Shown here in pieces: positions 52,932 to 60,347 of a DNA stretch of 64,000 bases. The stretch lies in NCBI GenBank assembly GCA_000827495.1, contig KN817549.1, positions 162,164 through 226,163 of the forward strand. Direction: 5' to 3'. The position numbers and the translations under genes were made by a program. Source of the stretch: Hypholoma sublateritium FD-334 SS-4 (lineage: Eukaryota > Basidiomycota > Agaricomycetes > Agaricales > Strophariaceae). The notes under the pieces are model-generated. The model searched no databases, was not told the origin of the DNA, and saw only the letters and a program-made list of their open reading frames with translations. How positions within the stretch are numbered: the first letter of the stretch is position 1; each line of letters starts with the position of its first letter.

Positions 52932-54629
52932 TCATTCAAGCTTTGTAACAACATTCAGTCTCTCGGCCTTTTTCTGCGAAACAAAGTCCAATATCTGCCG
53001 GAACTCCTCCGTCGCCTTTATACCTCTGATATCAATGGTCACCCTCTTCCATGGCAAGATATTCGGCATAGCAGTCCCCCCATGCTTTCCGTTGAGGAAC
53101 AGCTGCAGTGTGTGATGGGAGAAATAAATCTCTCCGCTGAAAGTGATGTACTGCAGGCGCGGACAAATAACACCAACATCGCTTTTGTCGACAAATGTTT
53201 GCAAAAGCATATTAGCATCCGGTACTTTCGATGCTTTAATGCTGTGGCCCCATGCGGGGGGGTGGAGGGATAGTACAGTGAGTGAAGGGCAGTGGCGCAG
53301 AAATCCTATTGTGTTTGTGAATAATGTGTCTTCTGGAAAGTAAGGGAGAGAAAGATTCCAGATCTTCGGCGATCTCTGCAGAAAATTGGAAAATTGGAAT
53401 TTAAGGANTATTGAACTGATGTCAAGTTTTTCTAGAGCCGGAGCAGTAATGAGGTCGATTAGACTAGGAGTTCCGGATGAAGGTGGCAGTGGTCCAAAAG
53501 TTCTGTCGGTGATATATAAAGTCTCCAGAAAAGGAAGCGTTATTTTCTCAAAGTAGAGTTCGACACCTTCGCGGTTCCAACCTACAAAAGCAATGTCGCA
53601 GTGTATAAGACGCTTGGTTTGCTGCAGAATTCCGCCTAACTCATTCATAGAAAAGCAAAAATTGTCCCACTTGGCATTGAGATAAATAGAAGTCAGAACT
53701 GCCCAATTGATTGTAAAACTCCGGAGGCTGTTCGTTAGTAATGATACACGTTTGAGTGTCGGTAGTGTGAGGAATCCAGTGTCCGGAAGTGTAGAGCGGG
53801 AAATTAAGCACGCAAGGTCAAGGGACACTGACTGGAGCAGGGGAAGATCAATGGCGGTCAATGAAGCAATGCGAATCATGGGTCTGGATAGATATTGCAA
53901 ATCCGATTTGAACTTGATCTCTTTCCAGTGGGTTGAATAACTAAGAAGGGTGTCGAGAAGAATGTTTGATGGATCTGATTCATTGTCTTCTAACCTGGTA
54001 TACGAGGAGGTGGGGTCCCGTATGTATAGAGTGAGAGGCAGCCCATCCGCTCGCTCGAACCATTTACTAGCCCTACGGGCCAGAACTGAATATGCCAATA
54101 GCCTGTTGCTTCCAAAATTAGGCCAAACATCCATACGTGTCCAGATGATAGGGGTGGTCAGCGCGACGTGCCGCATTCCGCTGGATATCTGCGCCAGAAC
54201 GTAAGGCAACGAGATTTCATCACAAAAAAGAGTGGGGATGGAGTCTTTCACGCATGCAATGCATATTTCCCTAAGCACATCCTCCGGGAGGTTTTGAACG
54301 GCAGAAAGAACATGGCAATGGTCTTCGGAAGTCTCCAAGATCGCCGTTTTTTGTTCGCGCAGCCGCTGCGGCTTTGTTTCTGCCCGCTCGGCCTGTGATT
54401 TCAGCGCTTGGATGTGGACCGTTGTATCGGATATCTCCTCCTCCACAGCCTTCAATGTCGCGTTGGTGGGCACCATGGACTGATGGATGATAGCCTTTTC
54501 GTGGTCGGTAGGTGGTCGGTTGGTCTTGAGCAATGTCTCTAAAACTGAATCGCCTACGAAATAGTATCGATAATGTATTTCAAAGTAAGCACAACTCAGA
54601 CACTCACCGAACGATGTTGGATGATCCAT
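52932..54629 (-). CDS. F-box-like protein, paralogue A
   Basis: Exons (minus order) 54629-54608 (22 nt) and 54553-52932; one 54-nt intron; 547 aa. It begins MDHPTSFGDSVLETLLKTNR, then a predicted coiled coil (about residues 30-85) and an F-box-like motif LPEDVLREICIACV followed by a long leucine-rich-like region (LTAIDLPLLQSVSLDL, LPFLETLYI, LRHCPSLTVLSLHPP). F-box proteins recruit substrates to SCF ubiquitin ligases through Skp1. Such coiled-coil F-box-like proteins are a large expanded family in Agaricomycetes, so the target is unknown. One base is unresolved (N at 53408), giving one unknown residue but no frame break. The gene lies head to head with paralogue B. Confidence 0.85.
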   Translation of the reverse strand: MDHPTSFGECLSCAYFEIHYRYYFVGDSVLETLLKTNRPPTDHEKAIIHQSMVPTNATLKAVEEEISDTTVHIQALKSQAERAETKPQRLREQKTAILETSEDHCHVLSAVQNLPEDVLREICIACVKDSIPTLFCDEISLPYVLAQISSGMRHVALTTPIIWTRMDVWPNFGSNRLLAYSVLARRASKWFERADGLPLTLYIRDPTSSYTRLEDNESDPSNILLDTLLSYSTHWKEIKFKSDLQYLSRPMIRIASLTAIDLPLLQSVSLDLACLISRSTLPDTGFLTLPTLKRVSLLTNSLRSFTINWAVLTSIYLNAKWDNFCFSMNELGGILQQTKRLIHCDIAFVGWNREGVELYFEKITLPFLETLYITDRTFGPLPPSSGTPSLIDLITAPALEKLDISSIXLKFQFSNFLQRSPKIWNLSLPYFPEDTLFTNTIGFLRHCPSLTVLSLHPPAWGHSIKASKVPDANMLLQTFVDKSDVGVICPRLQYITFSGEIYFSHHTLQLFLNGKHGGTAMPNILPWKRVTIDIRGIKATEEFRQILDFVSQKKAERLNVVTKLE

Positions 54630-55874
54630 TATCTGTAGTTTTGGATGTTTCTTAGGAGAGTTTGAGAGACGCTGATCGATGGCTGAAAACAACGTGTAGG
54701 TTCAAGTTTAGCGTGGCAAGCGCACTTAACTCACACGCGGGAAATTATATAAATATGCAACGTGTAAAGGCTGCGGCGTGCACTGACGTAGAGCATCTCG
54801 ACAAAACGCAGTATGTACATTATGCTTTGTGAGCGGTTTAGATTCGTTGGTAAGAGCCAATTTCCAAAGCCGCACTTCTATCTCAACGGACTCCGAACAT
54901 AAGAAATAGCCCACCAATCCTCTGCAGTGCGGTGTCCATCGTCGCGGGGCGGATCTGAATCTGAACTCTGCGCACCCGACGCGCCGAGCGCGTTGAGGCA
55001 GTCGACAATTAGTGCTGGCAATCGGCGGCTCTAGCCTGCCGCGCGTCCTTCTCCATCCTCCCGGTGACGTTCTACCCGCGCGTGTCTAGTACCCAGAGCG
55101 GCGCGGCTGTACTCTGTCCAGGCACCAGTCGTCTTGATATATCCGTGTGTTGACACGAATTTACAGTATCAAGTCCATCCACATTCGTCATATCGAGAAA
55201 AACTCATAAATTCATAATTTTACAAACTGTATGTATAGTCGTATATTGAACTACAAAGGAGACTGGTCACGAGTCTAGATATAGCTAGCTGAGCATCTTT
55301 TCGAGGCGAATTTGATTGGCAAAACAAGATGGCGAAACGGCTTCGTGTTACTTTGCCTGCTTTTATTCTTTAGATGGTGCGACAAGCAATGCAACGTGCA
55401 AACAAACCACAGGACTTTTCCAAATGCTTTTCAGATGCGGTCTTACTTGGGTTTTACTCATCTTTGATCAAGAATGACGAGAATTGACGAGTAAGCTGCG
55501 CGTTGGCTGCGCGCGCCACCGCGCGCAGGAAGACAGAGGTGATGATTCAATTCGCACCCACGGCCATGATGCTGGCATCGCCGAGTCTAAGCACAGATGT
55601 TATGGATCCGTAGCGGTAACTTGATTTATTTGGAGCATTCTGTAAGCCATACCACCAGATTCGCGACGCTAATCCGCAGCGTCCAGTCAGTTGAAGTTAT
55701 TAATAGACAAGACCTTTGTGCATAACGCCGCCATCAACGAATTTACTTAATTGACTCACCGCGCCATATTTATGTACGTGGGTTGCGTGTAAATAACTCC
55801 GAGTCACACGCTGTATTCAACCATCGGTTAAGCTCCCTCAAAGGGTTTCCTCCGTAGACCAAAAACAAAGGAAA
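54630..55874. other. divergent promoter region between F-box-like paralogues
   Basis: About 1.25 kb separating the two head-to-head genes. I see no obvious sequence symmetry between the two halves and no gene. Confidence 0.45.
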
Positions 55875-57614
55875 ATGGATCGTTCTCCCGTATCCAGTGA
55901 GCTTCTGATTCACTCATCTGGAACCCTCAACCTCAGTTAAATCTATATTCTAGACAATTCAGCCATGGAAGCATTGCTCAAAACCAACCGACCGCCTACC
56001 GACAAAGAAAGAATGATTCAGATGCTCCAGGACTCTATTTCCGCTGACAATAAAAAATTGAAAGCGTTACAAGGGAAGATATATGAAGCTATTGCCCATA
56101 CCCAGCAGCTGAAACCGCAGAAAGTAGCACGGACGAAAATCAAGTTGCGACACCTGCGGAGGGAGGAATCAGCGATCTTGGAAACTTCCACGGACCATCG
56201 TCGAGTTTTCTCTCCCTTTACAAACCTTCCAGAGGACGTGATTCGCGAGATATTCGCTGCTTGTGTAGAAGATAACATTCCCATATTATCTTTCGGCACC
56301 ACTCCTTTTCCTTACATACTCGCACAAATCTCCAGCGGAATGCGACACATCGCACTGACAACCCCGTGCATTTGGGCATCTATGAACGTTCGCACAAATC
56401 TCTTCTATTTTGGCTCTCAACAACCGAGTAAAAAGGATTATGCAATGCTGGCTAGTAAAGTGAGCCAATGGTTCGATCGGGCAGGTGGAATGGCTCTCAC
56501 TGTATTTATGCAAGACCTCAACCGTTACTTATACGCAACGCTGGCAGACGTCCAAAATGATCCATCAAATATACTTTTCGACACTCTTCTTAGTTATTCC
56601 AGCAGGTGGAAAAGGATTCAGCTTGAATCAATTTACGGAGACGTACCATCTGCACCATTGGTCCGCATTGCTGCACTGACGGCTGTTGATGTTCCCTTGC
56701 TGGAATCAATTACCCTTTGCTTTCAATCTGGCTCCTCCGTGTTTCGCAACAGTCCAATCCTCAAAATCCCGACACTTAGACGCCTAACATTGGATACACA
56801 TTGGAATCAATTTAACGGCACCATCATCTCCCAATTCACTGTCAATTGGACCAACCTTACCTATGTTACAATTCATGGTGGCAGGGGCAACGGTGTTAGT
56901 TCCATTGATGAAATAGCACAAATACTCCGGAAAACCAAGCGTCTTGTTTTCTGCGATATTGCTGTCGGTACAGGGTCAGAACATCTGCTGGGCAAAATTG
57001 ATCTCCCGCTTCTGGAGATGTTATGTGTCGACGACAAAAGATGCAAGCCAAACTCCTCCGGAGTTCCCAGTATATTTGACTCGATCAATGCCCCCGTTCT
57101 CGTCGTACTCAAGATCCGCGCAAAGTTCCTTGACATCCCCTTGGCAGATTTCTTTGGACGAACACCAGCGATTCGGGAACTCTCCCTATCCCACTTGAAC
57201 AGTGAAAAATCTTTAGCGGATATCACGAATTTACTCCGCCACTGCCCTTCACTGTCCGTGCTTACCCTCCATCCGCCGCAGTGGAGTAGGATGAATCAAC
57301 CGTATGACGCTAACATGTTCCTGCGCACCTTTGTCGAGGACGTCAATGGTGGCGTCGGTATTACTTGCCCGCGGCTGGAGTATTTCAATTTCACAGGAGC
57401 TGTCAATTTCTCTCTTCAAACATTATCCCAATTTCTTGAGGCCAAGCAACGTGGTACTGCTCCGGTGAATGGGCTGCTCCCATGGGAAAGGGTCAAGATT
57501 GACATGTGGGGGATACACGATTTGGAGAGATCGCAGAAGTTAGATCTTGTGTCGGAAAAGCGGGCGGCGGGACTCGATGTTTACATATACGTGAAGGACT
57601 ATGTTTACGGTTAA
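55875..57614 (+). CDS. F-box-like protein, paralogue B
   Basis: Exons 55875-55896 (22 nt) and 55954-57614; one 57-nt intron; 560 aa. It begins MDRSPVSNNSAMEALLKTNR and has the same architecture as paralogue A: coiled coil, NLPEDVIREIFAACVEDNIP F-box-like motif, YILAQISSGMRHIALTTPCI shared nearly identically with A, then leucine-rich-like repeats (LTAVDVPLLESITL, LPLLEMLCV, LLRHCPSLSVLTLHPP). First-exon length and intron phase are the same in both copies, which supports a recent inverted duplication. Likely role: substrate adaptor of an SCF ligase; no substrate can be inferred. Confidence 0.88.
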
Positions 57615-59867: not shown

Positions 59868-60347
59868 TCATTTCCATCCTGGGGGAGTAGGTCGTGGGGC
59901 GGCTTCGCGTTTCCATCCTGGGGGACCGGGCTGGGGGACAGCTTCGCGCTTCCATCCCGGAGGGGTGGGGGCGGCAGCCGCCTCGCGTTTCCAGCCTGGC
60001 GGAGTCGGCAGAGGGGCAGCTTCGCGTTTCCATCCCGGGGGAGTTGGCTGGGGTTCCGCCTCGCGTTTCCAGCCAGGTGGAGTAGGCAGCGCTTCACGCT
60101 TCCACCCCGGGGGAGTAGGCCCGGCTTCTCGCTAGAACAAGTAGTATTGCCAAATTAAGCGCCAGTCAAGAAGAAAAGAAGCAGCGGAGCGCACCACAAG
60201 CAAGGCGTCTCTGACGATCAGCGCATCATTCTGAACGCACGCTAGTCAGTGGTAGTTATCCCATTTTGGAACTGGACCTACAATCGGTGCAGCGAAGACG
60301 GCGCTCAGCGCAGAGACGACGAGGAGGGTAAAGCTGACGACGCGCAT
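59868..60347 (-). CDS. secreted precursor with seven Kex2/STE13-type peptide repeats
   Basis: Exons (minus order) 60347-60282, 60230-60195 (36 nt) and 60131-59868; introns 51 and 63 nt with good branch sites; 121 aa. The signal peptide MRVVSFTLLVVSALSAVFA is followed by a short pro-region (APINDALIV..) and seven tandem repeats. Each starts REA and ends PGWK: cores GPTPPGW, LPTPPGW, EPQPTPPGW, APLPTPPGW, AAAPTPPGW, VPQPGPPGW and APRPTPPGW. Between cores stands KREA: KR is a Kex2 site and EA a STE13-type dipeptide, as in ascomycete alpha-factor precursors and in Kex2-processed repeat proteins of Dikarya. The precursor stops directly after the last core plus Lys. Alternatives are a RiPP precursor of the ustiloxin type, whose repeats are also KR-separated, or a repetitive surface protein like Ustilago Rep1. 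No UstY-type (DUF3328) oxidase is seen nearby. Confidence 0.85.

Follow-up and report, generated by a model that had tools for sequence, protein, structure and literature searches.

A predicted STE13-signature KEX2-processed repeat protein of Hypholoma sublateritium, probably trimmed to the pentapeptide TPPGW

KEX2-processed repeat proteins (KEPs) with a STE13 signature were reported in basidiomycetes by Le Marquer 2019, where it was speculated that they are hormones, with effectors as another possibility (PMC6339444). Umemura 2020 counted 1680 basidiomycete KEPs, 103 of them with DUF3328 neighbours, and described 76 KEPs that resemble six proposed basidiomycete pheromones, 17 of which have DUF3328 neighbours (PMC7329392). 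Vogt 2022 found that Pleurotus and shiitake contain KEP peptides with a Trp end, described the Pleurotus precursors as having STE13 motifs, and considered STE13-type trimming likely; the P. ostreatus peptides MSGVAADW, SGVAADW, and LSGVAADW belong to a precursor with STE13 motifs, and the peptides QYKAPSW and QMRPPSW came from KEP 490115 produced in P. pastoris (PMC9769878). Further work on the functions of basidiomycete alpha-factor-like KEPs is called for in both PMC6339444 and PMC9769878.

Here, we describe a gene, designated KEP1, within a 64,000-nucleotide stretch of the Hypholoma sublateritium genome (the window); it very probably encodes a KEP. Comparison between KEP1 and the closest described systems revealed that (i) KEP1 shares a predicted signal peptide, dibasic-split repeats, and X-Ala/X-Pro dipeptides with the STE13-signature KEPs of basidiomycetes, as described for those of Le Marquer 2019 (Fig. 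7b), for the 76 of Umemura 2020, and for Pleurotus KEPs 1091723 and 1439342; (ii) these two Pleurotus KEPs, the products of which were seen as linear peptides (Vogt 2022), have a Trp-ended core as KEP1 does, whereas the KEP1 core is TPPGW and not SGVAADW, 11 of its 19 dipeptides are X-Pro, and its Pro-Pro start is a plausible built-in stop; (iii) Coprinopsis cinerea KEP 490115, compared by its published description only, likewise has STE13 motifs and a C-terminal Trp but a different core; (iv) KEP1 would be processed like the S. cerevisiae MF alpha 1 precursor, by Kex2, Kex1, and Ste13 and into several copies of one peptide, whereas its pro-region is almost absent, Pfam MF_alpha does not match it, its core is a pentapeptide, and its host has STE3 receptors and CaaX-ended ORFs; and (v) dikaritin (ustiloxin-type) precursors have the KEP layout in common with KEP1, which lacks a core Tyr and has no UstYa gene among the listed matches on its contig.

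KEP1 is a clean further example of a gene kind already known in mushrooms since 2019. The original prediction, made from the window sequence, saw an alpha-factor-like layout in a basidiomycete, and this holds: a signal peptide, Kex2 sites, X-Ala dipeptides, and several copies are found, and STE3 and CaaX-ended open reading frames (ORFs) lie on another contig. Novelty on the ground of a surprising design is not supported, since STE13-signature KEPs of basidiomycetes had been described (PMC6339444, PMC7329392, PMC9769878) and the supposed anomaly was therefore already known. In one open literature collection, searched by text without figures or supplements, the strings PPGWKR, APGWKR, TPPGW, PGWKRE, and GPPGWKR led to two papers whose titles are unrelated to peptides, and "PGW" is absent from the main texts of PMC6339444, PMC7329392, and PMC9769878.

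Gene model and repeat array

A real gene lies at the predicted coordinates, on the minus strand, which the original prediction had not stated (Table 1). Exon 1 encodes Met-Arg, a long hydrophobic run, and an end of small residues, a shape that is matched in two further KEPs of the genome (KEP2 and KEP3, described below); the signal peptide was judged by eye and by this match. The A+T box upstream of KEP1 has a similar counterpart at KEP2 and a weaker one at KEP3, also by eye.

Table 1. Features of KEP1 (window positions) and places of KEP2 and KEP3
Feature	Position	Strand	Remarks
KEP1 gene, ATG to stop	59868..60347	-	two exons, 109 aa; protein relatives found; ATG at 60347, stop at 59868
TATA-like box TATAAAA	60406..60412	-	about 60 nt 5' of the ATG; by eye
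Exon 1, MRVVSFTLLVVSALSAVFAAPI	60282..60347	-	predicted signal peptide, likely cut near VFA/API; judged by eye
Predicted intron GTAGGT...TTCTAG, 150 nt	60132..60281	-	two in-frame stops (60248, 60134)
Exon 2, seven repeats (X-A/X-P)n-[T/G]PPGW-K(R)	59868..60131	-	then stop TGA
Core 1, TPPGW	60102..60116	-	after REA-GP, without KR
Core 2, TPPGW	60069..60083	-	after KR-EA-LP
Core 3, TPPGW	60030..60044	-	after KR-EA-EP-QP
Core 4, TPPGW	59991..60005	-	after KR-EA-AP-LP
Core 5, TPPGW	59952..59966	-	after KR-EA-AA-AP
Core 6, GPPGW	59913..59927	-	after KR-EA-VP-QP
Core 7, TPPGW	59874..59888	-	after KR-EA-AP-RP; the last repeat terminates WK-stop
KEP2	contig C242, L010 1404-1965	+	exon 1 ends TQAAP; predicted 64-nt intron; found by protein search
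KEP3	contig C12, L058 5396-5905	+	exon 1 ends VAAAP; predicted 66-nt intron; found by Trp-Lys/Arg pattern

A TAG in the repeat frame stands immediately 5' of exon 2, so that the repeats can be linked to the signal peptide only by an acceptor at this place or slightly within exon 2. Acceptors farther upstream were excluded, because this TAG abuts CGAGAAGCC, and donors other than GTAGGT at 60281 were judged by eye to be poorer or phase-changing. No splice model was found that places a Lys before the Arg of the first repeat. The predicted intron (60281-60132) is supported by the equivalently placed introns predicted in KEP2 and KEP3. A message that retains the intron (60249-60347, minus strand) would encode 33 residues ending VGPVPKWDNYH.

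The predicted product consists of MRVVSFTLLVVSALSAVFAAPI, then REA-GP-TPPGW-KREA-LP-TPPGW-KREA-EPQP-TPPGW-KREA-APLP-TPPGW-KREA-AAAP-TPPGW-KREA-VPQP-GPPGW-KREA-APRP-TPPGW-K. Its seven near-identical repeats are split by six dibasic KR sites, the arrangement by which KEPs are recognized. The array exceeds what chance would give: TRF reported it with scores of 180 and 224 and, in one row, of 86, and the codon comparison and the protein relatives described below agree. PGWK is constant in all seven repeats, as had been predicted. The other details of the prediction need adjustment: (i) the KREA signals assigned to seven repeats are present in six, the first repeat having REA straight after the acceptor; (ii) the PTPPGW core has Thr before PPGW in six copies and Gly in one; (iii) a core length of 7-10 residues does not fit, as two copies have 7 residues and the other five have 9 from KREA or REA to the next Lys; and (iv) of the short pro-region there is hardly any, about three residues (API) standing between the likely signal-peptide cut and the first REA. 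The sole Pfam match of KEP1 at E<=1, a methyl-CpG-binding domain (22 bits versus a cut-off of 21), was taken as spurious, no stretch passing alone.

Dipeptide register of the spacers and predicted processing

The spacers of all seven copies are 4 or 6 residues long (EA included) and consist of in-register X-Ala/X-Pro dipeptides, which stand immediately C-terminal to the Kex2 sites as in the STE13 signature. The second position of these dipeptides is Ala or Pro in 19 of 19 cases (8 Ala, 11 Pro), and the 19 first positions comprise 8 Glu, 4 Ala, 2 Leu, 2 Gln, and one each of Gly, Val, and Arg, with no Pro.

This arrangement suggests a processing route. The signal peptide would take the product into the ER, and Kex2 would cleave C-terminal to each KR; a Kex1-type carboxypeptidase would then strip the trailing K or KR to leave a C-terminal Trp, and a membrane dipeptidyl aminopeptidase (DPAP; Ste13-like) would strip the in-register dipeptides EA, EP, AP, LP, QP, AA, VP, and RP. 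Trimming would halt at Thr-Pro-Pro or Gly-Pro-Pro, where the Pro beyond the would-be cut would block the DPAP; DPP-type enzymes are not known to cleave ahead of a Pro. The secreted products would be TPPGW (six copies) and one GPPGW, and the first copy, which has no KR of its own, may remain joined to API. The preference for Ala or Pro at P1 is documented in PMC5807507 and in a table row on fungal DPAP B in PMC9147577; Pro at P1' of DPP enzymes is not mentioned in the consulted passages of PMC9147577, PMC5807507, and PMC7804941. Splicing, secretion, cleavage, trimming, and the Pro-Pro stop are predictions for KEP1, while the sequence itself shows the layout, the register, codon signs of selection on register and core, and the presence of Kex2 and DPAP family genes.

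The trimming rule was applied in silico, N-terminal X-Ala/X-Pro being stripped as long as the following residue is not Pro, after the Kex2 and Kex1 cuts. The EALP, EAEPQP, EAAPLP, EAAAAP, and EAAPRP units all gave TPPGW, and the EAVPQP unit gave GPPGW; the first unit, if released at its single Arg, also trims to TPPGW. Seven distinct segments are thereby reduced to two, TPPGW (six) and GPPGW (one). When residues were shuffled within the spacers, as few products were reached in 3 of 200,000 shuffles for all seven KEP1 units, and 0 of 200,000 trimmed every one of the seven completely; the corresponding counts for the six KR-flanked units were 9 and 0 of 200,000; the KEP1 repeats arose by duplication, so these shuffles overstate independence and are not independent trials. 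The same comparison, on hand-chosen unit sets as for KEP1, gave counts (few products, then complete trimming, of 200,000) of 4 and 0 for KEP2 (8 of 9 Trp-ended segments, AELGTDG- being omitted, with 7 of the 8 trimming fully), 1471 and 201 for the relative P0001 (4 units, the C-terminal APAPAPG being omitted), 2 and 0 for P0014 (3 of 6 printed segments), and 5459 and 51 for P0002 (4 of 9 printed segments).

The codons of the repeats show where change has been tolerated. Pairwise comparison between repeats of the core TPPGWKREA (6 units, 9 codons) gave a pS of 0.71 and a pN of 0.033 (pN/pS 0.05). For the five 4-residue spacers after EA, the second (Ala/Pro) positions gave a pS of 0.80 and a pN of 0.10 (pN/pS 0.12) and the X positions a pS of 0.64 and a pN of 0.54 (pN/pS 0.85), each of these spacer ratios being based on two codons in five units. 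The conserved positions are those on which cutting by Kex2, trimming by a DPAP, and the mature peptide itself would depend, and the drifting X positions appear to be the residue least read by a DPAP.

The original prediction expected one precursor to release up to seven related peptides. A KEP of that kind would yield seven longer, related peptides side by side, each ending PTPPGW and either keeping or lacking EA, and the variation among them would be functional. All seven segments are indeed distinct before trimming, and multi-core KEPs such as KEP3 exist; against a functional mixture, the variation falls mostly on the first residue of the dipeptides and is near-neutral there, in contrast to the Ala/Pro positions, and the spacer lengths vary by two residues only. 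The variable residues are trimmable dipeptides, so that the products should converge on TPPGW and GPPGW. We regard the mixture as improbable and the expectation of up to seven peptides as probably wrong, and convergence of the products on TPPGW as likely.

Relatives and further KEPs of the genome

A protein search with KEP1 found 6 relatives at E<=1e-3 (best 2.3e-21), and a search with an alignment of seven sequences found 23 related proteins among the 7997 scored candidates, those sharing most words, five of the 23 (P0001-P0004 and P0006) being rows of the query itself. Species names are attached to 13 of the 23: Termitomyces, Lyophyllum shimeji, Arthromyces, Favolaschia, three Mycena, Pholiota, Pleurotus eryngii, Collybiopsis, Melanogaster, Sanghuangporus, and Arthrobotrys entomopaga, the last being the sole ascomycete among them.

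Loss of the KR sites with the rest conserved, which the original prediction had set against itself, is the opposite of what the relatives display. Among the 148 Trp residues of the 23 proteins, 121 are followed by a dibasic pair, 9 by one basic residue, and 7 by neither, and 11 are the last residue; the commonest Trp ends are PPGW (33) and APGW (30). That 11 of the 23 relatives end exactly at Trp, as KEP3 does too, points to Trp as the last residue of the mature peptide. APGWamide-type peptides use a Gly after the Trp as amide donor. A mimic of such an amidated PGW neuropeptide was rejected, as 0 W-G-dibasic sites occur in the 23 relatives and none in the seven KEP1 repeats; the search for Cu2_monooxygen gave no match, and the control genomes were silent too.

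Of the four units of the metagenomic P0001, three contain TPPGW and one TPPDW, and the dipeptides differ from those of KEP1. Three units of Pleurotus eryngii P0014, with spacers of 12, 8, and 10 residues, all trim to WRADW. In P0006 of Arthrobotrys entomopaga, EA-QPPGW-KR occurs together with DP-IP-TPPDW, which is followed by KEKR. The closeness of the P0006 cores to agaric cores may reflect convergence or transfer.

At least two more Trp-ended KEPs, KEP2 and KEP3, are encoded in the genome, with an intron predicted at the equivalent place (exon 1 of KEP1 ends FAAPI). For 7 of the nine Trp-ended segments of KEP2, trimming leads to GSPVQGW or GSPTQGW; those with AELGTDG- and ESAP- fail to reach the core. 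KEP3 has two core types, GSGTTDW and GSSTEDW, with hardly any dipeptides; it was found among the listed matches (up to contig C26) of a loose Trp-KR pattern, which gave 276 matches over the genome versus 145 in a reversed control. The KEP3 cores resemble the shiitake SGTGEASAADW peptide. A protein match on contig C49 (E 0.38) was dropped, as the surrounding frames hold no KEP. Many relatives (e.g., P0009, P0017, and P0020) do not trim to a single core, and with KEP3 nearly devoid of dipeptides, the register is therefore not general to PGW-type KEPs.

Processing enzymes, mating genes, and possible functions

Enzymes of the families that the proposed route would use are encoded in the genome. 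Kex2-type P-domains occur in three places, one with a subtilase domain beside it, and DPPIV_N (PF00930) matches in one place (E 3.3e-63), the domain being confirmed in one exon and of a DPAP type that is Golgi or vacuolar. A hydrophobic stretch lies about 0.5 kb upstream of the DPPIV_N match, and a simple pattern for the usual active-site serine motif found none in the unspliced DPAP DNA.

Kex2- and DPAP-type genes, together with a precursor layout the same as that of ascomycete alpha-factors, are what an alpha-type mating pheromone acting through a Ste2-like receptor would call for, and Sordariomycete alpha-pheromones, too, have Trp as their last residue (PCW; PMC6339444). Several observations argue against this. 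The STE3 search gave 15 exon matches on contigs C10 and C6; a search of 46 kb around these exons found four CaaX-ended ORFs (59, 54, 53, and 64 aa; CVIS or CIIS), all of them at 182-191 kb of C10. The mating signals thus look ordinary and are placed elsewhere than KEP1, which is on contig C32. STE2 gave 0 matches at E<=10 in the genome, by the method that found STE3, although this is weak evidence because the control genomes gave 0 as well; Pfam MF_alpha and MF_alpha_N gave no match in KEP1 at E<=1; and the core has no Cys and only five residues. An alpha-type pheromone is unlikely, in our estimate highly so. The region L067 (C10:182001-192000), where the CaaX ORFs lie among STE3 exons, is a likely pheromone/receptor mating locus, to all appearance of the usual a type.

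A precursor of a cyclised dikaritin-type RiPP (ustiloxin-like) is another design with this layout, and the genome is rich in UstYa (DUF3328) genes, with at least 39 matches on 13 contigs, several of them grouped (e.g., on C31, C81, C135, C136, and C65). A dikaritin core needs Tyr for its cyclisation, and the cores TPPGW and GPPGW contain none; in the exon-by-exon search, the 39 listed matches all lie on contigs other than C32, C242, and C12, which carry the three KEPs. DUF3328 genes are near 22% of the KEPs that resemble proposed basidiomycete alpha-pheromones, which favors such a product, but near only 6.1% of basidiomycete KEPs overall (Umemura 2020, PMC7329392). The RiPP reading offered by the original prediction is weak, given a core with neither Tyr nor Cys and a KEP1 contig free of the listed UstYa matches, and a dikaritin-type product is likewise unlikely, to the point of being very improbable.

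The neighbourhood of KEP1 was no help towards a biosynthetic cluster, which was rejected on the unspliced neighbouring ORFs. Ten chosen unspliced ORFs of the window at 44.6-59.5 kb, a set in which genes may be missed, gave a single Pfam match, a tRNA-synthetase core, and for ten of the 26 unspliced frames of at least 130 codons within the next 10 kb past the window, Dna2/AAA was the sole match. A Dna2 exon about 2.7 kb past the window is, among the best 120 of 287 matches, 63% identical to Pholiota conissans, 60% to Flammula alnicola, 58% to Galerina marginata, and 88% (over 78% of its length) to a further record, as would fit an agaric close to these dark-spored genera. Around KEP2, ten chosen unspliced ORFs gave NACHT-type, carboxylesterase, and Mur-ligase matches. 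Two open frames of the window, 52935-54701 (minus strand) and 55941-57611 (plus strand), 589 and 557 codons from stop to stop, have no Pfam or NCBIfam match.

A structural or surface peptide (a Rep1-like repellent) or one directed at the environment is a functional reading compatible with the proposed processing. Rep1 repeats are much longer than a pentapeptide, and the KEP1 product falls far below their length; moreover, Rep1 has no STE13 signature (Le Marquer 2019, PMC6339444). For a peptide directed at the environment, six C. cinerea kep knockouts had no growth or fruiting phenotype and a role in biotic interactions was proposed, whereas no antibacterial role was seen for the peptides tested (Vogt 2022, PMC9769878). 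We consider this group of functions possible but rather doubtful. The lack of a phenotype in these knockouts also speaks against a strong developmental signal, and a signalling role of the KEP1 peptide has, in our judgment, somewhat less than an even chance. The bolder proposal, in which apparently diverse repeats, one exopeptidase, and a Pro-Pro stop yield TPPGW as a non-mating mushroom hormone with a receptor other than STE2, is unlikely; TPPGW kept in P0001 with other dipeptides and the similar cores in P0006 count toward it.

The best overall explanation, which we consider probable, is that KEP1 is a STE13-signature KEP trimmed by a DPAP to TPPGW. We infer that its product functions as a linear secreted peptide, either a signal of the fungus to itself or a signal directed at other organisms, and not as a mating pheromone. 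The predicted main product would be TPPGW ([M+H]+ 557.27) instead of seven peptides; the calculated [M+H]+ of GPPGW is 513.25, and those of the seven EA forms are 911.43, 967.49, 1208.56, 1135.58, 1067.52, 1134.56, and 1178.60. KEP1 would yield a precise prediction of DPAP specificity for a basidiomycete, namely, to trim X-Ala and X-Pro and to stop before Pro. As a simple peptide obtainable by synthesis, TPPGW would suit screens for receptors and for behaviour, and the register of the spacers may help predict the mature products of such KEPs.
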